DNA of 42,357 bases, from NCBI GenBank assembly GCA_902776735.1, contig CACYRE010000002.1, positions 1-42,357 of the forward strand, read 5' to 3'. Shown piece after piece: positions 5,828-42,357 of this stretch (position 1 is the stretch's first letter; every line of letters starts with the position of its first letter). A program made the translations under genes and the position numbers. The notes under the pieces are model-generated. The model saw only the letters and a program-made list of their open reading frames with translations. It was not told the origin of the DNA and ran no database searches. The stretch is from an uncultured Erysipelotrichaceae bacterium (GTDB taxonomy: Bacteria; Bacillota_I; Bacilli_A; RF39; UBA660).

Positions 5828-6928
5828 ATGAGTTTAACAGCTGGAATAGTTGGTCTACCAAATGTTGGAAAGTCAACTTTATTCAATGCCATTACAAATC
5901 AAAAAATACTTGCTGAAAATTATCCATTCGCAACCATCGAACCAAATGTTGGAATAGTAACTGTTCCAGATAAAAGAATGGATAAATTAAAAGAAATGTA
6001 TAATCCAAAAAGATTTATACCAACAGCATATGAATTTACAGATATTGCTGGTCTTGTAAAAGGAGCAAGTAAAGGAGAAGGACTTGGTAATAAATTTTTA
6101 TCTCATATTAGAGAAGTAGATGCTATTGTTGAAGTAGTAAGATGCTTTGATGATGGTAAAATTATCCATGTTGAGGGAAATATTGATCCAATAAGAGATA
6201 TAGAAACAATTAATCTAGAACTTGCCATTGCAGACTTAGAAGTAATAAATAATAGATTAGAAAAAGTATCTAAAAAAGCAAGAACTACTAAGAATAAAGA
6301 TGATATTTTAGAAACAGAAGTTTTGAAAAAATGTAAAAAATCATTAGAAGAAAATAAACCAATTAGGTTATTAAACTTATCAGATGATGAAAAAAAAGCA
6401 ATAAAATCATATAGTTTCTTAACTGAAAAACCTATTATTTATTTAGCAAATATTAAAGAAGAAGATATTGGAAATTCCGATAATAAATATGTAAAAGAAG
6501 TAAAAGAGTATGCTAAGAAAGAAAATGCTAGAGTTATCAGTTTATGTGCTAAAGTAGAAGAAGATTTAAGTGAATTAAATGCACAAGACAAGGAAGAAAT
6601 GTTAGAAGCTTTAGGACTAGATTCTTCAGGATTAGATAAACTAATAAACACAACCTATGATATTTTAGGACTTGCTACTTATTTTACAGTAGGCCCTGAT
6701 GAAGTAAGAGCATGGACTTTTAAAAAAGGCATGAATGCTAAAGAATGTGCTGGAATAATTCATACTGATTTCGAAAAAGGTTTTATTAGAGCCGAAGTAA
6801 TTTCATATGAAGATTTAATAAAATATGGGGATGAATTAAAAGTAAAAGAAGCAGGACGCGCCAGACTAGAAGGAAAAGACTATTTGATGCAAGACGGAGA
6901 TATCTGTCACTTCAGATTTAATGTATAA
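5828..6928 (+). CDS. ychF: Redox-regulated ATPase YchF (Obg-like)
   Basis: An Obg-family P-loop NTPase that prefers ATP and associates with ribosomes; in other bacteria it affects stress responses and translation. Seen: P-loop GLPNVGKST (residues 9-17), switch region NYPFATIEPN (31-40), DIAG (72-75) with GASKGEGLGN, a coiled-coil insert, and a C-terminal TGS domain ending FRFNV. The length, 366 aa, is canonical. The ribosome binding site is AGAGGAGAT. It has its own promoter after a terminator and overlaps the next start by a few bases, so the YfiH-like gene is probably co-transcribed. The ychF-rpsF neighbourhood is conserved in Bacillus. Confidence 0.97.
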   Translation: MSLTAGIVGLPNVGKSTLFNAITNQKILAENYPFATIEPNVGIVTVPDKRMDKLKEMYNPKRFIPTAYEFTDIAGLVKGASKGEGLGNKFLSHIREVDAIVEVVRCFDDGKIIHVEGNIDPIRDIETINLELAIADLEVINNRLEKVSKKARTTKNKDDILETEVLKKCKKSLEENKPIRLLNLSDDEKKAIKSYSFLTEKPIIYLANIKEEDIGNSDNKYVKEVKEYAKKENARVISLCAKVEEDLSELNAQDKEEMLEALGLDSSGLDKLINTTYDILGLATYFTVGPDEVRAWTFKKGMNAKECAGIIHTDFEKGFIRAEVISYEDLIKYGDELKVKEAGRARLEGKDYLMQDGDICHFRFNV

Positions 6929-8962: not shown

Positions 8963-9946
8963 ATGGAAATAATCAAAGAAAGAAAAAAATTAAATAGAGC
9001 AATACGTCATGCCAAAAAAATATTTTTGATGGGACATAAAAACTTAGATTTAGATGCCTTGGGAAGTCAAATTGGTATGTATATGGTTTTAAAGAAAAAG
9101 AAAAAAGATTGTTATATAATAATTGATGATAAAGAACATGAAGCAGGAGTAGAAAAAATTCTAAGAGAACTTGATGGTGTAATTACAAAAATAAAAAGTT
9201 CTGAAATTGATGAAAATTTATCTCCAAATAATTCAAAAAATTTACTAATTATTTTAGATACTAATAAAACTGAGTTAGTTCAAAGTAAAGAAGCACTAAA
9301 TAAAATAAATAAAAAATTAGTAATCGATCATCATATATTAGGCAAAACAACTATAAAGAATGCCGATATTATTGATGACTCTAAAGCCTCAAGCACCTGT
9401 GAAATGATAACTAGCCTAATTGAATATTATGACGTAGAAGTGGATTCTTACTATGCTACAATACTATTATCAGGAATAGTTCTAGATACTAATAACTATA
9501 CATTAAATACTACTTCAGAAACATTTTACGCTTCATACTATCTATCATCACTTGGAGCAAGTGCAAAAAAAGTTCAATATTTACTAAAACAAGATATTGA
9601 AGAATATACTGAAAGACAAAAATTAATGGCTAATATTGAAACTATTAATGATATAATAGCTTTTACACATGCATCAACTAATACAATTTATAGAAAAGAA
9701 GATCTTGCTAAAGTAGCAGATACTTTACTCTTCTTTAATAACATTGAAGCATCATTTGTCATAGGAAAAATAGATAAAGAAACAGTAGGAATAAGTGCTA
9801 GAAGTTTAGGAAATTATGATATATTAAATGTATTAAAAAAATTTAATGGTGGAGGAGACACTAACTCAGGAGCTGCAACTGTAGAAAAATCAACTATTTC
9901 TAAAGTAGAACAAGAATTAAAAAAACTAATTAAAGAAGGTGAATGA
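8963..9946 (+). CDS. GdpP-like DHH/DHHA1 phosphodiesterase lacking sensor domains
   Basis: Catalytic part of a GdpP-type phosphodiesterase, a family that hydrolyses c-di-AMP or short oligonucleotides. Seen: GHKNLDLDALG (residues 24-34) with the metal-ligand H25, D29 and D31; D99 in IILDTN; DHH at 122-124; D175 in GIVLDTNNY; and a C-terminal DHHA1 domain. GdpP from Bacillus is about 660 aa, with two membrane helices, a PAS domain and a degenerate GGDEF; all of these are missing in this 327-aa protein. The DHHA1 GGGH motif reads GGGD (296-299). It occupies the gdpP position before rplI and overlaps or abuts it. An NrnA-like role is the alternative. Start: ATG after GGAGGAGA. Confidence 0.85.
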   Translation: MEIIKERKKLNRAIRHAKKIFLMGHKNLDLDALGSQIGMYMVLKKKKKDCYIIIDDKEHEAGVEKILRELDGVITKIKSSEIDENLSPNNSKNLLIILDTNKTELVQSKEALNKINKKLVIDHHILGKTTIKNADIIDDSKASSTCEMITSLIEYYDVEVDSYYATILLSGIVLDTNNYTLNTTSETFYASYYLSSLGASAKKVQYLLKQDIEEYTERQKLMANIETINDIIAFTHASTNTIYRKEDLAKVADTLLFFNNIEASFVIGKIDKETVGISARSLGNYDILNVLKKFNGGGDTNSGAATVEKSTISKVEQELKKLIKEGE

Positions 9947-28781: not shown

Positions 28782-28800
28782 AATAAGGCAATTTATATCT

Positions 28801-28819
28801 ATGGCAAATTATTTGTCAT
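28801..28819 (+). promoter_or_regulatory. 5' leader hairpin of rpmE
   Basis: ATGGCAAA (28801-28808) pairs with TTTGTCAT (28812-28819) with one G-T pair, a short stem-loop about 10 nt before the GGAAGGAG ribosome binding site. Leaders regulating rpmE are known in Firmicutes; this is a positional candidate only. Confidence 0.35.
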
Positions 28820-28837
28820 GGCGGAAGGAGAGATAAT

Positions 28838-34661: not shown

Positions 34662-37154
34662 TTGAATATTTTAAAAAAGTTATTCGATCACGAATATAAA
34701 GAATTAAGAAAATTTGAAGTAATTGCTAATAAAGTAGTAGCTTTAGATGATGAATATTCAAAATTAACTGATACAGAATTACAAAATAAAACTGATGAAT
34801 TTAAAGAAAGATTAGCTAAAGGAGAAACTCTTGAAGATATATTAGTAGAAGCTTTTGCAGTTGCTAGGGAAGCAGCCTATCGTGTAATTGGAGAAAAACC
34901 ATTTTTTGTTCAAATAATAGGTGCTTTAGCTATTCATTATGGAAATATAGCAGAAATGAAAACTGGTGAAGGAAAAACTTTAACTGCTGTACTTCCAGCT
35001 TATTTAAATGCTTTAACCGGAAAAGGCGTTCATATTATTACAGTTAATGAATACCTAGCTAGTCGTGATGCTGAGTGGATGGGTGGAATACATAGATTTT
35101 TAGGCTTAACTGTTGGAGTTAACAAAAGAGATATGACACCAGAAGAAAAGAGAGATGCTTATAACAGTGATATCTTATATTCCACTAATAATGAAATAGG
35201 ATTTGATTATTTAAGAGATAACATGGTTGTTAGAAAGGAAGACAGAGTACAACGACCACTAAACTTTGCTATTATCGATGAAGTAGACTCTGTATTAATA
35301 GATGAAGCAAGAACTCCATTAATTATTTCTGGTGGAGAAATGGAAAATAAAAATTTTTATTTAAGTGCTGACAAATATGCAAAAAGTTTAAAAGAAGATG
35401 AAGATTTTATTTATGATGAAAAAACTAAGAGTGTTAATTTAACAGAAAAAGGATCAGATAAAGCAGAAAAAATGTTCCATATAGACAATTTATATGACGT
35501 AGATAATGCTACACTTCTTCATTTTATTAACCAAGCCCTACGTGCAAATTATGCTATGAAAAAAGACTTTGATTATGTAGTTCAAGATGGAGAAGTAATA
35601 ATAGTTGATCAATTTACTGGCCGTTTAATGAAAGGAAGAGCTTATTCTGACGGACTTCATCAAGCAATCGAAGCAAAAGAAGGAGTCCAAATTAATCAAG
35701 AAACTAAGACACTTGCAACTATAACATTCCAAAATTTATTTAGGATGTATAAAAAATTATCTGGTATGACAGGTACCGCAAAGACAGAAGAAGAAGAGTT
35801 TAGAGATATTTATAACATGTATGTTATTGAAATACCTACTAATAAACCAATTATCAGAATAGATGAACCAGACCTACTATATGCTTCTAAGGAAGCAAAA
35901 TACAAAGCAATTATTAACTTCGTCAAAGAAAGATATGAAAAAGGGCAACCTGTTTTAATAGGTACAATTGCAATAGAAACTAGTGAATTAATAAGTAATT
36001 TATTAGACCAAGCTCATATTCCTCACGAAGTATTAAACGCCAAAAATCATGAAAGAGAAGCTGAAATTATATCAAAAATTGGTTTAGGAAAATCAGTCAC
36101 AATTGCTACCAATATGGCAGGTCGTGGAACTGATATTAAACTATCTGACGAAGTAAGAGCTTTAGGTGGTCTATGCGTTGTAGGAACCGAAAGACATGAA
36201 TCTCGTCGTATTGATAATCAGTTACGTGGACGTTCAGGTCGTCAAGGAGATCCAGGTTATACTCAATTTTTTGTTTCAATGCGTGATGATTTAATGGTAA
36301 GATTCGGATCAGATAGAATAGGTGCCATGATGGAAAACATGGGATTTGGCGATAATGCTATTAGAAGTAAAGCCTTTACAAGATCAGTTGAACAAGCCCA
36401 AAAAAGAGTTGAAGGAAATAACTATGATATAAGAAAAAATTTATTACAATATGATGATGTAATGAATAATCAAAGAGAAATAATCTATGGTAAAAGGAAT
36501 CAAATATTAGATAATGAATCAATCCATGAGATGGTTTTAAGTACTTTTAGACATCATATCGAAGATATAGTAAAATCTCATATGCCACCAGAAGATATGT
36601 TGACTGAAAGAGATTATGCCGATATAAGAGAAGAAGTTAATGAAAATTTATTAAAGAAAGATTTAACAGAAAAAGAAATAAAAGGAAAAGAGCCAGATGA
36701 TTTAATTGATTATATTTGTAAAAAAGTAATTGCTGAATATGAAGCTAAAATTAAAGAAGTACCAGAAGAAGTAAGTCAAGAATTCGAAAAAGTTATTACT
36801 CTACAAGTAGTTGATAATTATTGGATGGAACAAATCAATACTATGTCTCACTTAAGAGAAGGAATTTACTTAAGAGGTTATGGTCAAGAAGACCCTCTAA
36901 GAGCTTATACCATTGAAGGATTTAATTTGTTTGATAAAATGCTACAAGCTATAGATAAAGATGTATCAGTATTCTTACTTAAAGCAGAAATTAGACAAAA
37001 TATTGAAAGAAAAGAAAATACTGAAACAATGACAACAAATGATTCTGAAGCAGAACCAGTAAAAAGAAAACCTAAAAGAGTAAAAAAGATAGGTAGAAAT
37101 GATCCATGCCCATGTGGGTCTGGCAAAAAATTTAAACAATGCCACGGTAAGTAG
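34662..37154 (+). CDS. secA: Protein translocase ATPase SecA
   Basis: Motor that drives preproteins through SecYEG. Seen: Walker A GEGKT (residues 102-106), [34 protein letters not shown] (Walker B region), the preprotein cross-linking domain, [22 protein letters not shown]-type motif VI (here [14 protein letters not shown]), the helical wing and scaffold, and a C-terminal zinc finger [14 protein letters not shown]. 830 aa, close to B. subtilis SecA (841). Start: TTG behind AAGGAG, followed by NILKKLFD as in the family. prfB, the usual next gene, is absent; an integrase region follows instead. Confidence 0.98.
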
Positions 37155-37155
37155 C

Positions 37156-37284
37156 ATAAAATAAGGGTTTGCGAGCGATTGTGTTCGCAAAATCAGCTAC
37201 AAAAAATGGCAAATGTTCGCAAAAAGTTCGCATAAAAATATTTTGAGAAAACATTATACTGAACAAAGCCTTATAAAATAAGGG
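37156..37284 (+). repeat. 12-bp direct repeat bounding a 105-bp segment next to secA
   Basis: ATAAAATAAGGG occurs at 37156-37167 and again at 37273-37284. The second copy lies inside a palindrome, CCTTAT-AAA-ATAAGG (37269-37283). The first copy begins one base after the secA stop codon. Placement beside an integrase gene suggests an attachment-site core or a scar, but no third copy is visible at the right end. Confidence 0.45.
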
Positions 37285-37336
37285 AAAAATGAATATTCAA
37301 GTTGTGCGAACAAATTGGTTAAAATGTTCACATAAA
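37168..37336 (+). repeat. Cluster of TGTTCGCA-like repeats upstream of the first integrase
   Basis: GTTCGCA occurs at 37183-37189, 37215-37221 and 37226-37232, inverted as TGCGAAC at 37305-37311, and as GTTCACA at 37326-37332. Extended, the copies read roughly TGTTCGCA-n-AAA. The first copy also forms a perfect 7-bp inverted repeat, TTTGCGA (37168-37174) with TCGCAAA (37185-37191). These are plausible arm-type integrase sites, operators or iterons. Confidence 0.6.
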
Positions 37337-37365
37337 GAACAGGCATATTGTTGTCTGTTCTTTTT
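37334..37365 (+). terminator. Hairpin with T-run upstream of the first integrase
   Basis: AAAGAACAG (37334-37342) pairs with CTGTTCTTT (37355-37363), with T residues after it. It may end secA read-through or attenuate integrase transcription. Confidence 0.6.
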
Positions 37366-37396
37366 GCTTATTTAAAGAAAGAGGAGTGAGAACATT

Positions 37397-38710
37397 ATGG
37401 CCAATGTAAGAGTCATGAAAAGAGGAAAGGTATATCAATACCAATTTGAGATAGCACCAGTTGATGGTAAGAGAAAGTATATTAATAAAAGTGGATTTAA
37501 GACTAGAAAGGAAGCGTTTGATGAAGGAGTAAAGGCTTATAACGAATATGAATATTCGGGTAAGAAAGTAAATGTTAAAGATATGTCTTATTCTGATTTT
37601 TTAGATTACTGGGTAGATAATTATGCAAAAATTAACTTAAGATATTCAACTATCATGTCGTATTGTAATATTATTAAGAATCATATTAAGCCAAGAATAG
37701 GTCATTATAGACTATCACAATTAGATACAAGAATGCTTCAAGAGATGATGAATAACATTTATGTACAGAATTCTTTTTCTAAATGCTTTATAGCAAGTAT
37801 TTTAAAGGTTTTAAAAGGATCACTTAAGTATGCATGTTATACATTAAATTATATTAATTCAGATCCAGCTGAAAATGTACATGCACCTAGATATGAAACA
37901 ATAGATAAAGATCCAGCTCATATTTTTACACAAGAAGAAGTGGAAAGAATTTTAGAAAGATTTAGAGAATCACATTCAATTTATTATTCATTACTAACTG
38001 CATATTATACAGGATTAAGAGTATCAGAGTGTTATGGATTAACTTGGGACTGTGTTGATTTTGAAAATAAAACAATTAAAATAAACAAAAATATAATTAA
38101 AAAGAATCAATTAGGTTTACCAAAGAGGAAAAATATTACTAAAGGACACTCTACAACAATTTGGTATTATGGAAATTGCAAAAATCCTCAAAGTCAAAGA
38201 ACAATATCAATAGGAGATAGACTAGTAGAAGCTTTAAAGGAGTATAAAAAAGAACAAGAAGAGAATAGAAAATTTTATGGAGATAGTTATTTATTACATT
38301 ATGAAAAAAGAGTAATAAATGAATTTACCAATAAACCAGAAATAAAAATAATAGATGCCAAAGCTGAATTGGAAGTAGGATTACCAGAGGCACAATTAGT
38401 ATTTGTAAAAGAAAATGGTCAATTTTTAGGAACTGACACACCAAAATATGCTTTTAAAGTAATTCATTACGAATTAGGAATCAATTCCAGATTTCATGAC
38501 TTCAGAGATACACATGCAACTAGATTAATAGAAAGTGGTGCAGATATTAAAGCAGTATCAAAAAGATTAGGACATTCTACCATAGATACAACATATAATA
38601 TTTACGTTAGAGTAACCGAAAAAATGCAAAATGATACTGTAGAAAAGTTTGAAGATTATGCAAAAGATATGATTATCCCCAAAACTGTGGATAAACCTTA
38701 TTTTGACTAA
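37397..38710 (+). CDS. int: Tyrosine-type site-specific integrase (first copy)
   Basis: Tyrosine recombinase of the phage/ICE integrase class. Seen: an N-terminal AP2-like arm-site-binding domain (about residues 1-55), a SAM-like core-binding domain (about 62-165), and the catalytic domain with R208, H367-D-F-R370, H393 and nucleophile Y403; all catalytic residues are present, so it should be active. 437 aa. The ribosome binding site is AGAGGAGTGAG. It reads away from secA. The first 60 residues are very like those of the second integrase at 40962, including a 38-bp identical DNA block, while the catalytic domains differ much more. No excisionase lies beside this copy. Confidence 0.9.
   Translation: MANVRVMKRGKVYQYQFEIAPVDGKRKYINKSGFKTRKEAFDEGVKAYNEYEYSGKKVNVKDMSYSDFLDYWVDNYAKINLRYSTIMSYCNIIKNHIKPRIGHYRLSQLDTRMLQEMMNNIYVQNSFSKCFIASILKVLKGSLKYACYTLNYINSDPAENVHAPRYETIDKDPAHIFTQEEVERILERFRESHSIYYSLLTAYYTGLRVSECYGLTWDCVDFENKTIKINKNIIKKNQLGLPKRKNITKGHSTTIWYYGNCKNPQSQRTISIGDRLVEALKEYKKEQEENRKFYGDSYLLHYEKRVINEFTNKPEIKIIDAKAELEVGLPEAQLVFVKENGQFLGTDTPKYAFKVIHYELGINSRFHDFRDTHATRLIESGADIKAVSKRLGHSTIDTTYNIYVRVTEKMQNDTVEKFEDYAKDMIIPKTVDKPYFD
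37418..37455 (+). repeat. 38-bp block identical to one in the second integrase gene
   Basis: Positions 37418-37455 are identical to 40983-41020. The block codes for KRGKVYQYQFEIA-type residues in both proteins and is flanked by clearly diverged sequence, so it points to recent conversion or strong constraint on the DNA. Confidence 0.85.
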
Positions 38711-38714
38711 ACAC

Positions 38715-38742
38715 TTGATTTTTAGAAAAAAAGTGTTATTAT
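38715..38742 (+). promoter_or_regulatory. Promoter for the leader-peptide transcript
   Basis: TTGATT (38715-38720) and TATTAT (38737-38742) with a 16-bp spacer. An inverted repeat, AACACTT (38710-38716) with AAGTGTT (38731-38737), overlaps both hexamers and could be an operator. Confidence 0.5.
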
Positions 38743-38775
38743 AAAAGACAATTAATTAATTGGAGCTGATGTCTA

Positions 38776-38853
38776 ATGAGAAATAAAGCACTTTTAATTT
38801 ATACACCAAAACAATTTAGTTTATTAATTAATGTGATCAATGAGGGAAATTGA
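38776..38853 (+). CDS. 25-residue leader peptide
   Basis: A short frame starting ATG 38776, with a TTGGAGCTGATG region upstream that supplies GGAG as ribosome binding site. The peptide runs MRNKALLIYTPKQFSLLINV and ends INEGN. Its stop codon (TGA 38851-38853) lies inside a strong terminator whose 5' arm covers the last three codons. A ribosome that reaches the stop would block that arm and let transcription continue, so translation of this peptide probably controls the downstream genes. It is not rich in one amino acid, so it is not a classical amino-acid attenuator. Confidence 0.55.
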   Translation: MRNKALLIYTPKQFSLLINVINEGN

Positions 38854-38879
38854 CTATAAAGTCTTTTTCCCTCTTTTTT
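38842..38879 (+). terminator. Attenuator-type terminator overlapping the leader peptide stop
   Basis: GAGGGAAA (38842-38849) pairs with TTTCCCTC (38866-38873). Inside, GACT (38852-38855) pairs with AGTC (38860-38863) across a TT/TT internal loop. Six T residues follow. The next gene starts 15 bp after it. Confidence 0.85.
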
Positions 38880-38893
38880 GTTAGGAGGGTTTT

Positions 38894-39511
38894 ATGGTAA
38901 GGTATGAAAATGGTGAAATAGTAATAGGAGAATTAGATGATAGAAAAGTATTATCGAAAAAAATGATAGAGAAGTACGATTATAAAGCAATCAAGAAAGA
39001 TTTTGATGATATTGTTGAATTACTTGAAATGAATATGATGTTCCATTCAGAACATAAAGAGAAATTAAAATATGAAGTTAATGACAATCTAGAATTTAAA
39101 ATCTTTGTTAATCCATATCTACATGATTACACACTTACTACTGAAGATGACGATTTGTCGGAATCAGATACTGGTATTCTAACAATGGATAAAACGTTAT
39201 ATGAGCATTTTTATGAATTGTGTGAGCTACTTTTAATAAAAATTCATAAAGCATGGAAACATTTAAATGAAGTAGAAAGATTTATTATAAAATCATTAGA
39301 GTTTGATAATCCACCTTCTACAGATGAAGAATTAGAAGATGTATTAATGTATTGTAATAAGAAATATTATCAATACAAAAAGAGTGGATTCATTAAAATC
39401 GGTACACAATTAAGATTAGAAGAAGCAAGAGGCTCAACTAGAGAAAATGTTAAGAAACAGTCAAAGAAACTAGAGGAAGAGTTTTATGAAAAAGAAAAAA
39501 TTCAAAACTGA
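38894..39511 (+). CDS. Accessory protein, possible ArpU/sigma-like regulator
   Basis: Not recognised with certainty. A 205-aa acidic protein behind a strong TTAGGAGGG ribosome binding site. The N-terminal two thirds is a mixed alpha/beta region with an acidic patch (TEDDDLSESDTG, about residues 81-92). The C-terminal third, LNEVERFIIKSLEF through ELEDVLMYCNKKYYQYKKSG, has the spacing of sigma-70 region 4-like phage regulators (ArpU family), ending in a charged helix. It directly follows the attenuator, so it is the first gene that would be controlled by leader translation. It overlaps the next gene by 26 bp. Confidence 0.45.
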   Translation: MVRYENGEIVIGELDDRKVLSKKMIEKYDYKAIKKDFDDIVELLEMNMMFHSEHKEKLKYEVNDNLEFKIFVNPYLHDYTLTTEDDDLSESDTGILTMDKTLYEHFYELCELLLIKIHKAWKHLNEVERFIIKSLEFDNPPSTDEELEDVLMYCNKKYYQYKKSGFIKIGTQLRLEEARGSTRENVKKQSKKLEEEFYEKEKIQN

Positions 39512-39962
39512 AGACGAAATAAGAAAAACACCCTTAGTTCAAAATAAATACAAAAATTCTTATGAATATGATGTTTATAGAGATTTCGTTATATTTAATT
39601 TAAATGATATGTATGTTTATTATGATATGGATATTGAAGAATTCTACAAGAAATTAGAGAAATTATTAATTAAATATGAAAAAGAAGGAAAATATTTGTT
39701 GATTCAGGAAATAGATATGAAACATGTAGTTTTATCAAAGCATGAAGCAAATAAACTTACATATTGGCAATTTAATGTATGGTATTGGTATTGTATAGAT
39801 AAATTACATAAAGATTCAGAATACTCTTATAAAAGACTCAATATGAAACCAATTATGGATAAGGTACATAAAGAAAAAACGAATAAACTAGAAGCTAAAA
39901 AAATAGAAACTATCTCAATGAAAAACTTTGAACCATTTAAATCTATTATTTATCGTGATTAA
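39486..39962 (+). CDS. Hypothetical accessory protein
   Basis: Not recognised. 158 aa, lysine- and tyrosine-rich, predicted largely helical, without transmembrane segments or cysteine motifs. Notable stretches are KNSYEYDVYRDFVIFNLNDM and YWQFNVWYWYCIDKLHKDSE; the latter aromatic cluster (about residues 97-104) would form a hydrophobic core or interface. It begins inside the upstream gene, with GAGGAAGAG before the ATG, so it is translated from the same message. A terminator closes the unit 15 bp after its stop. Confidence 0.55.
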   Translation: MKKKKFKTEDEIRKTPLVQNKYKNSYEYDVYRDFVIFNLNDMYVYYDMDIEEFYKKLEKLLIKYEKEGKYLLIQEIDMKHVVLSKHEANKLTYWQFNVWYWYCIDKLHKDSEYSYKRLNMKPIMDKVHKEKTNKLEAKKIETISMKNFEPFKSIIYRD

Positions 39963-39976
39963 ATATAATACTTTTT

Positions 39977-40004
39977 AAGAATGATTTATATCATTCTTTT
40001 TTTT
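39977..40004 (+). terminator. Terminator after the two accessory ORFs
   Basis: AAGAATGAT (39977-39985) pairs with ATCATTCTT (39990-39998), loop TTTA, followed by a T run. Confidence 0.85.
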
Positions 40005-40147
40005 GGAGAGAGAAAGGAGAGTTTAAAGAGAGTTTTTAATATACAAAAAATTACATTAAAAAGCTAAAAATAATTCTAAAATTTAGCTAATTTTTTACCA
40101 TGGTGAAATAACCTCTATAAGCGTAAATTTATAGGTGAACAAAGGCC

Positions 40148-40181
40148 TTAGTTCAAATCTAAAGAAAAGGAAGTGAACTAA
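40148..40181 (+). promoter_or_regulatory. Inverted repeat enclosing the ribosome binding site of the HTH gene
   Basis: TTAGTTCA (40148-40155) and TGAACTAA (40174-40181) are perfect 8-bp inverted repeats; the AAAGGAAG ribosome binding site lies in the loop and the ATG starts two bases after the second arm. It may be a translational hairpin or an operator for the encoded helix-turn-helix protein. Confidence 0.55.
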
Positions 40182-40182
40182 A

Positions 40183-40734
40183 ATGAATGGTGAATATATA
40201 AGAATATTCGCAATCATGCCTAGTGAAATCTATAAGACAAAAGATTTAACTAGCGAAGAAAAATTAATCGCAGAGAGAATAACAGCTCTTTGCAAAAAGG
40301 AGGGATTTGCTTGGATAAGTAATAAAGCATTAGCTGATATGTATGGAATAAGAGTTGATACAGTTTCAAAACATATAAAGAATTTAATTGAATATGGATA
40401 TATCAAATGTCTATATGGGAAGAATAACAATGGTAATAAAAAAAGAACCATATATTTATCCAATAACATATGGGACAATGAAGCAATAATAAGTAGTTTA
40501 GATAATCAATCAAATATAGGTTATTCATCCAAATATAATAATAAGAATAAATATAAAGAGAAATATATAGATAATGATATGGTAGATGGTCATCCTAGAT
40601 ATGGAAAAGATGAGAACGGTATAGAATATTGGGATGGTAAAGTAGTTCCACAAGAATCAGAACCTATAGATGATCAAGAATTTCTTGATGAATGGAATGA
40701 ATTTGTAGATTCATTAGATAATGATGAGGAATAA
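40183..40734 (+). CDS. Winged-helix protein, probable replication initiator or regulator of the element
   Basis: A 183-aa protein. The N-terminal half (about residues 1-95) is a winged helix of the HTH_36 kind found in phage and ICE replication proteins: IMPSEIYKTKDLTSEEKLIA, WISNKALADMYGIRVDTVSK and HIKNLIEYGYIK give the recognition helices. The C-terminal half is asparagine- and acid-rich with no clear domain. It has no primase, helicase or DnaA-type ATPase motif, so it could be an initiator accessory or a transcription regulator. It is followed after one base by the excisionase gene, the rep-xis-int order of small integrative elements. Confidence 0.6.
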   Translation: MNGEYIRIFAIMPSEIYKTKDLTSEEKLIAERITALCKKEGFAWISNKALADMYGIRVDTVSKHIKNLIEYGYIKCLYGKNNNGNKKRTIYLSNNIWDNEAIISSLDNQSNIGYSSKYNNKNKYKEKYIDNDMVDGHPRYGKDENGIEYWDGKVVPQESEPIDDQEFLDEWNEFVDSLDNDEE

Positions 40735-40735
40735 T

Positions 40736-40969
40736 ATGGATGAGAGATTAATATATACCGTTCAAGAAGTGGCTAGTGTTCTTCATTCTAGTCCAAATTA
40801 TATTTATGAATTAATTAGAAAAGGTTATTTACCAGCTATAAAACTTGGAAGTTTAAAAGTCTTAAAATCCACTTTAGAAAGATTCTTAATTCAAAATGAA
40901 GGAAAAGATTTATCTGATCTTAATAATATTAGAAAAGTAGTTATACAAGTAGAGGTAGAAAATGGCTAA
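40736..40969 (+). CDS. xis: Excisionase / MerR-like DNA-binding protein (HTH_17)
   Basis: A 77-aa winged-helix protein of the excisionase type. Seen: YTVQEVASVLHSSPNYIYEL as helix-turn-helix and IRKGYLPAIKLGSLKVLKST as wing and recognition segment, close to the Tn916 Xis pattern. It should bend DNA at the element ends and bias the adjacent integrase towards excision. Start ATG 40736 is preceded by GATGAGGA; an ATG five codons earlier lies within the upstream gene. It overlaps the integrase start by 8 bp. Confidence 0.8.
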   Translation: MDERLIYTVQEVASVLHSSPNYIYELIRKGYLPAIKLGSLKVLKSTLERFLIQNEGKDLSDLNNIRKVVIQVEVENG

Positions 40970-42248
40970 TATAAGAATTACTAAAAGAGGAAAGGTATAT
41001 CAATACCAATTTGAGATAGCTTCTGTTAATGGAACTAGAAAATATATAAATAAGAGTGGATTTAAAACAAAAGCAGAAGCTCTCGAGGCAGGAAATATAG
41101 CATATACCGAATATATAAATGCTGGAAAACCTTTTAAAGAATCAAAATTATCTTATTCAGATTATCTTGACTATTGGTTAGATAACTATTGTAAAAACAA
41201 TTTAAAATACAATACAGTTGAAACATATAAATCATTAATAAACAAATATATTAAATCTAAAATTGGAAAGTATAAAATATCAACCCTTACAAGTGTTGCA
41301 TTAAATAATTTTATTGTAGAAATGGTTAATGAATATGATTTTTCTAGAGAATACTTTAAGAATATTTTAAAAGTTCTTAAAGGTTCATTTAGAGAAGCTT
41401 GCAATCTATATGGAATAATTAAATATAACCCAGCTTTAACAATTAGACTACCAAAAATTGATAAAGAAGATGAAGATATAAAACACTTATATACAAAAGA
41501 AGAAATAGATATAATTCTAGATAAATTTAGAGATAACAATTCATTTATATGTGCATTCTTAACTTCATGTTTTACAGGAATGAGAACTGGAGAAGTGTTT
41601 GCTCTTACATGGGAAGATATTGATTTAGAAAATGGAGTGATATATGTTCAACATAGTGTTTATGATAAACCAAAAGATTCTTTGGGAAGATGGTATATTG
41701 GATCTACAAAGACAATAACAGGAAAAAGAACAATATATATTGGCGATACTTTAAAAACAGCTTTAACAAATTATAAAAAAATGCAGGATGAGATAAAGAA
41801 ATTATATGGAAAAGAATATAAATATTATCATATAGAAGATGTAAAAAATGAATATGGAAAAGTTATTGAAAATAGGATAGTAATAAACAACAATGAATTA
41901 GAATATGAAAATGTAAATTTAGTATTTACAAAAATTGATGGAACATATACAGGAACAGATTTAATTAGATATCCATTTAAAGTGATTCATGAAGAACTTG
42001 GCATAAAGAAATGTAGATTTTATGATTTAAGAGGAACTTATGCAACAAAAGTATTAAATAATGGAACAGAAATTAAAGATGTAGCAAATCTATTAGGACA
42101 TAGAAATGTTGAAACAACTGAAAACTATTACATTAGAAGTATAGAAGATAATAGAAGAAATGCAGTTAATGAATTTGATAGTAAAAATACAACTGATGTT
42201 ATAAAAAGTGTTATTGGATTTCAAATTAAAGAAGGTGAAGCATTATGA
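40962..42248 (+). CDS. int: Tyrosine-type site-specific integrase (second copy)
   Basis: Tyrosine recombinase paired with the upstream excisionase. Seen: N-terminal AP2-like arm-binding domain (about residues 1-55), core-binding domain, and catalytic residues R208, R357, H380 and nucleophile Y390. The usual HxxR box reads YDLR, with Y354 in the histidine position; this position is known to tolerate changes in some family members. 428 aa, ending 109 bp before the window edge. The first 60 residues match the other integrase closely. Translation is coupled to xis through an 8-bp overlap. The downstream repeats suggest the element end is near. Confidence 0.9.
   Translation: MANIRITKRGKVYQYQFEIASVNGTRKYINKSGFKTKAEALEAGNIAYTEYINAGKPFKESKLSYSDYLDYWLDNYCKNNLKYNTVETYKSLINKYIKSKIGKYKISTLTSVALNNFIVEMVNEYDFSREYFKNILKVLKGSFREACNLYGIIKYNPALTIRLPKIDKEDEDIKHLYTKEEIDIILDKFRDNNSFICAFLTSCFTGMRTGEVFALTWEDIDLENGVIYVQHSVYDKPKDSLGRWYIGSTKTITGKRTIYIGDTLKTALTNYKKMQDEIKKLYGKEYKYYHIEDVKNEYGKVIENRIVINNNELEYENVNLVFTKIDGTYTGTDLIRYPFKVIHEELGIKKCRFYDLRGTYATKVLNNGTEIKDVANLLGHRNVETTENYYIRSIEDNRRNAVNEFDSKNTTDVIKSVIGFQIKEGEAL
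40983..41020 (+). repeat. 38-bp block identical to one in the first integrase gene
   Basis: Second copy of the block at 37418-37455, in the same position of the reading frame and direct orientation, 3.57 kb apart. Confidence 0.85.
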
Positions 42249-42251
42249 ATT

Positions 42252-42312
42252 ATGCAATGCTCAAATGAAAATGTAAATGCAACATTGAAGGGTTAAATGC
42301 AATGTTTGAGTT
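42252..42312 (+). repeat. Three ATGCAA-type repeats downstream of the second integrase
   Basis: ATGCAATGCTCAAATG (42252), ATGCAACATTGAAGGG (42277) and ATGCAATGTTTGAGTT (42297) are related. Outer CTCAAA (42260-42265) and TTTGAG (42305-42310) are inverted. Such sets at the integrase end of an element are typical of arm-type or core attachment sites. Confidence 0.5.
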
Positions 42313-42322
42313 AATTATTAGT

Positions 42323-42349
42323 AACAAACAAGGGAATTCCTTGTTTGTT
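42323..42349 (+). terminator. Palindrome at the right end of the window
   Basis: A perfect 11-bp stem, AACAAACAAGG (42323-42333) with CCTTGTTTGTT (42339-42349), with loop GAATT. The T run is absent, so it may be a weak terminator for the integrase or part of an attachment site. Confidence 0.55.
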
Positions 42350-42357
42350 GGACTTAT

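Follow-up and report, generated by a model that had tools for sequence, protein, structure and literature searches.

The 42,357-bp stretch of DNA analysed here (the window) is an entire contig, C2, of a MAG (1.36 Mb, 141 contigs), and carries two related tyrosine integrase genes behind secA, raising the question of whether they belong to one mobile element or to two, and how secA is involved. From comparison with relatives, we consider it very probable that the last stretch of the window is the left portion of a single IME of ~10 kb or more, inserted site-specifically in the secA 3′ end, for which joint action of Int1, Int2 and Xis, transfer by MobV, and movement of further units in trans are inferred. 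The right-hand part of the element is missing, because the window is the whole MAG contig. The genes that a sequence-only reading of the window had placed after secA are all present, and their coordinates are right. The features are as follows.

34662–37154, + strand: secA, the target gene; body of the host, last ~13 codons, by comparison, of the element
37113–37117, + strand: TGTGG, the minimal attL core, which encodes Cys-Gly in the SEC-C tail
37113–37154, + strand: element-carried SecA C-terminal codons and stop; copies 2 and 3 on contig C55 at 6745 and 9197
37182–37335, no strand: left arm sites, assigned from the matching arm types at the two ends of relatives; TGTTCGCA at 37182 and 37214, copies with one mismatch at 37225 and 37325, inverted copy at 37305
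37397–38710, + strand: int1, tyrosine integrase (Pfam), adjoining the secA tail in all assessable relatives
38711–38893, + strand: structured leader of orfA, possible attenuator
38894–39511, + strand: orfA, kept in small elements; weak match to phage transcriptional activators
39486–39962, + strand: orfB, no family assignment
40183–40734, + strand: winged-helix gene, replication-initiator-like (HTH_36; phrog_270, E 4e-15)
40721–40969, + strand: xis, excisionase (HTH_17; TIGR01764 above cut-off)
40962–42248, + strand: int2, second tyrosine integrase, YxxR instead of HxxR
42245–42258, + strand: first 14 bp of mobV (ATGAATTATGCAAT)
42259–42357, no strand: foreign sequence to the contig end, probably the edge of an insertion nested in mobV

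The match of orfA is to phrog_248 (E 8e-4); homologues are present in relatives, and a structure predicted for it (pLDDT 39.9) was set aside. Pfam, NCBIfam-type and phrog profile scans matched orfB to no known family. The orfA leader folds better than its shuffles (z −2.3), which is compatible with an attenuator. A short ORF, MRNKALLIYTPKQFSLLINVINEGN (38777–38854), lies ahead of a terminator-like hairpin 5′ of orfA and could encode a leader peptide. Elsewhere in the window, an L31-Firmicutes ribosomal protein leader was found at 28799–28830 (Rfam RF03156, 35.5 bits).

The 3′ end of secA as attachment site

Scanning species genomes with an int1 alignment yielded 80 loci in Bacilli and Clostridia, in hosts whose secA is 37 to 84% identical to that of the window. 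The public records list these relatives as MAGs of Bacilli and Clostridia; many come from gut samples, of ruminants among others, and some are filed as Candidatus Onthousia or Candidatus Coprovivens. The int1 gene lies ~230 bp behind a secA tail in 77 of the 77 loci with enough upstream sequence: a secA gene ends <400 bp upstream in 64 of the 80 and a secA tail is found there in seven, while the remaining six, four of them in arrays or away from secA, all showed a tail ~230 bp upstream on inspection by eye; three loci were too short to be assessed.

The insertion point is codon 817–818 in the 3′ end of secA, within the zinc-binding tail (SEC-C). The secA contigs of several relatives break at codon ~818, and extra short copies of the secA 3′ end occur elsewhere in relatives, as do two on contig C55 of the genome under study; a secA-tail pattern gave about 60 matches in 39 genomes of the genus, and the reversed pattern none. 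Such tails are present as direct-repeat att sites at both element ends. In flank alignments, the homology between secA and the element-borne tails begins at TGTGG. Eight left ends with TGTGCACA arms, of which two represent a single contig present in both of two collections, were compared around the core: mean identity is 58% over the 90 bp of secA that precede TGTGG and 96% over the 95 bp that follow. The element therefore supplies the last SecA codons and the DNA behind them. The switch at TGTGG is less clean between our genome and G014. As shown by comparison of these ends, integration swaps the last ~13 SecA codons for the element's copy, and secA is left intact with a new tail because the element carries the TGTGG core followed by its own SecA C-terminal codons. 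Element-borne tails vary in the last zinc ligand, CC or CH (e.g., L213 at 4774 and L215 at 7918), so that insertion can alter a SecA metal ligand. Immediately ahead of the core at the right ends lie 9-bp direct repeats (autocorrelation, 0.484 vs 0.327 in shuffles), possibly the sites of Xis. The inverted symmetry of the secA core, checked for homo- versus heteromeric binding, extends at best to 5 of 11 positions, which speaks for neither.

The expectation of prfB behind secA, expressed in the sequence-only reading, was right in essence: the two genes are on the same contig and strand in five relatives. Since prfB follows there only after 4.0–24.6 kb, the interval, of highly variable content in these genomes, is taken as a hot spot. 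A proposed comparison with an empty junction could also be made: in G003, 58 bp separate secA from a GNAT gene downstream, neither arms nor integrase are present, and the site is apparently unoccupied. Instead of recurring in all relatives, which would have spoken against an integrative element, the element is carried by some, not all, genomes of the genus. Full-text searches of open-licence literature returned nothing relevant on secA as an attachment or integration site, and the secA-tail element family of gut bacteria is apparently large and undescribed.

Two integrases and their arms

Matched ends were identified in two size classes of relatives, the right end being unreached for most int1 loci. 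In G017, G028, G154, G324, G094, and G069, small mobilisable elements of 10–14 kb, they enclose int1, orfA, the winged-helix gene, xis, int2, mobV, and cargo, with xis-int2 preceding mobV and the cargo. In G352, G362, G369, and G360, large conjugative elements, they enclose 42–92 kb, with int1 as the first gene and xis-int2 as the last before the right arms; a pooled scan of the proteins of these four gave a relaxase, T4SS-DNA_transf, a TraG P-loop protein, and BREX genes. The same xis-int gene set, a search for which had been suggested, thus recurs in relatives across genera.

The int2 gene overlaps mobV in G094, G154, and G069, and int2-mobV is uninterrupted in relatives. In our genome, the recognisable part of C2 ends with the 14 bp of mobV, the same 14 bp stand where C55 resumes and mobV goes on, and AAATGCAA repeats lie in both window 42259–42357 and C55 1–113. 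A nested insertion at the mobV start codon is probable; its flanks were recognised on C2 and C55, and the inserted element itself was not found. C55 carries mobV (above the NCBIfam cut-off), restriction-modification genes, the secA tail at 6745, a GntR-ABC-permease unit without an integrase, the tail at 9197, and a GNAT gene. It is likely the continuation of the C2 element, the contiguity being likely rather than proven because the right arms ahead of the tail at 6745 combine one TGTTCGCA with two TGTGCACA. Hence the earlier remark that no relaxase is visible holds within the window, but not for the element, with MobV following int2 in relatives and opening C55. Also on C55 (3726–4941, − strand), an m5C methyltransferase that has 414 aa in G034 is apparently broken, in two pieces of 273 and 92 aa, and adjoins an intact-looking MutH-type restriction enzyme.

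Int1 and Int2 both match Arm-DNA-bind_4 and Phage_int_SAM_3, and their catalytic residues appear intact, with YxxR for HxxR in int2 throughout. Their overall identity is 44%, rising to 73% in the arm-binding domain (the first 45 residues), which bears out the shared arm-binding domains noticed from the sequence alone. The arms are located ~70–210 bp to the right of the left core, between the secA tail and int1, and ~150 bp to the left of the right core, where the same arm type recurs before the second tail. Left and right arm sequences agree far better within units than between them (permutation p ≤ 5e-5 for 20 units and 2.5e-4 for 10 small units). Of 25 int1-int2 pairs, 24 have matching residues at positions 14 and 28 (expected, 13.8 and 8.5, respectively), and columns with significant agreement number 8 of 44 testable in the N-terminal part against 6 of 238 elsewhere, although the permutation p values for residue agreement are optimistic because several pairs are close relatives. 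The residues at 14, 16, and 28 track the arm type: Gln14/Gln16/Tyr28 go with TGTTCGCA arms, Gln14/Arg16/Tyr28 with TGTGCACA arms, and Glu14/Arg16/Trp28 with TTGTCCAC arms. Because the variable residues of the arm domain are common to the Int1 and Int2 of one element, the two enzymes probably recognise the same arms. Compared with G094, the HTH_36 gene, xis, and mobV are 96–99% identical (xis, 99%; mobV, 98%), whereas secA (63%) is diverged and int1 and int2 are 66% and 75% identical; our element is a mosaic, as if both integrases had been exchanged together.

A real possibility, though short of an even chance, is that the labour is divided, Int1 alone recombining at secA and Int2 with Xis carrying out another reaction (excision only, or at a second target). 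The catalytic domains differ to the extent of the overall identity given above, YxxR is constant in int2, xis always adjoins int2, and an arm-bounded unit of 6.9 kb within an array (L264) has int1 without int2. On the other hand, the arm specificity is shared and a single pair of arms serves both enzymes, and an int2-type integrase stands alone beside secA in G066, a locus that may be a deletion product. Joint catalysis by Int1 and Int2, which we favour, remains inferred.

The sequence-only reading had taken int1 for a lone integrase in an accreted or minimal element, which would make the locus a tandem of an int1 element at secA and an independent xis-int2-mobV element behind it. Tandem accretion is common at the secA site, int2 precedes int1 across an element boundary in G243 and G212, and in G017 a GNAT gene, elsewhere flanking the site, lies between int1 and int2. 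However, neither the window nor the complete relatives have a secA tail between the two integrase genes, the order int1...xis-int2 is kept from genus to genus and also in the 42–92-kb elements, and the recognition residues match within pairs. We rejected the two-element reading, now quite improbable, because one matched pair of ends encloses both integrases in the complete two-integrase elements recovered. By this evidence, int1 and int2 belong to one element, variably present at the secA-prfB junction; the units with one integrase type in L264 and G066, the mixed right arms of C55, and the less clean switch between our genome and G014 count against this reading. Of the two options left earlier, a small element of its own or the left part of a larger one, the second stands, with site-specific insertion at secA added, and a separate or minimal element is not supported. 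A prophage or phage-satellite end, suggested by the replication-initiator-like and phage-activator-like genes and by phage integrases related at about 33% identity, is extremely unlikely and was set aside in view of MobV in small elements and the T4SS coupling protein and VirD2-type relaxase in large relatives, with no structural phage gene in the window part or among the relatives' proteins scanned.

Integrase-less units and a putative mechanism

On contig C115 of G029, five secA tails follow one another 0.9–1.2 kb apart with one gene between each (a cupin, an unknown-family protein with a hydrophobic N-terminal stretch, and two methyltransferases), all on one strand and with no integrase in the array. 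Similar integrase-less units occur in G008, G016, G031, G012, and our genome, and the arms match at both ends in most of them, not all. Accretion at secA, as supposed earlier, does occur, but in the form of such cargo-only units, which lie to the right of the two-integrase element in our genome (C55) and make up arrays in relatives. The G029 units retain attL and attR and contain no integrase or transfer genes, and the integrase-less units look like single-gene CIMEs. Proteins of the form MEEKKKSN..GLIVLVV, with a hydrophobic stretch and a variable rest, recur in or beside integrase-less units with AGATACC arms (L079 1479–2144, L081 221–1024, L128, L172, and L077).

With the TGTGG core and its own SecA codons, the two-integrase element leaves secA whole, with its tail replaced, on integration; once a large element is excised as a circle, attP would have xis-int2 directly on one side and int1 on the other. 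In the mechanism that we propose, Int1 and Int2, bound to a common set of arms, would cooperate with Xis in integration and excision, and MobV would make the circle transferable by a resident conjugative element. Units that keep arms and core but lack integrases may be mobilised in trans and accumulate as tandem cassettes. More speculatively, and on balance doubtful, the system could represent gene capture outside integrons, in which an obligate Int1-Int2 pair, reading an arm code that is common to both and can switch, would recombine secA-tail cores; single-gene cassettes with matching arms would be brought in trans into rows behind secA, and each insertion would swap the zinc-binding tail of SecA.

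In uncultured gut Bacilli and Clostridia, secA appears to be a major hot spot of integration, previously undescribed, that serves mobilisable and conjugative elements with restriction-modification and BREX genes. The paired integrases offer a natural experiment on DNA recognition by arm-binding domains, as two diverged catalytic cores within one element have matched recognition residues that change together with the arm sequence, and with the tandem single-gene units one can test whether integron-like arrays can arise from an integrase system of the arm type.

Comparison with known systems

The element of the window is likely an IME: it has its own integrases and excisionase (int1, int2, and xis), direct-repeat att sites for site-specific integration, and a relaxase, MobV, seen after int2 in relatives and on C55, the likely continuation of C2. 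No conjugation pore was seen among its own genes scanned on C2 and C55, between which the assembly has a gap; the pooled proteins of the large relatives include the relaxase and T4SS genes of an ICE. The unusual features, with no prior description in the open literature searched, are the pairing of two integrases, the use of secA as a target whose tail is exchanged, and the arrays of single genes.

Streptococcal IMEs, which insert in the 3′ ends of rpsI, rpmG, and rplL (PMC5357655), are alike in the ~10 kb size, the restored gene 3′ end, tandem accretion, and a relaxase without an own T4SS. They differ in the target, secA being absent from the text of that paper, and in having an integrase at one end facing outward, whereas here two integrases share arms and int1 faces inward. 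CIMEs (PMC5704250) likewise have both attachment sites without an integrase and are accreted at one gene; here a unit of ~1 kb often holds one gene, and several such units, each having an arm type of its own, stand side by side. Integron arrays also line up mostly single genes in one orientation behind a single attachment site, but here the site is a coding secA tail with double-sided arms, and an integron was rejected since the integrases fall far below the IntI cut-off (63 and 57 bits vs 265). SEs, GInts, and Tn554 (PMC10214605) share with our element the presence of two catalytic tyrosine recombinases; theirs are adjacent, at one end and in an operon, and SEs have imperfect terminal inverted repeats, whereas the arm-type integrases described here stand apart, at opposite ends in the large elements, and are accompanied by xis and direct-repeat att sites.
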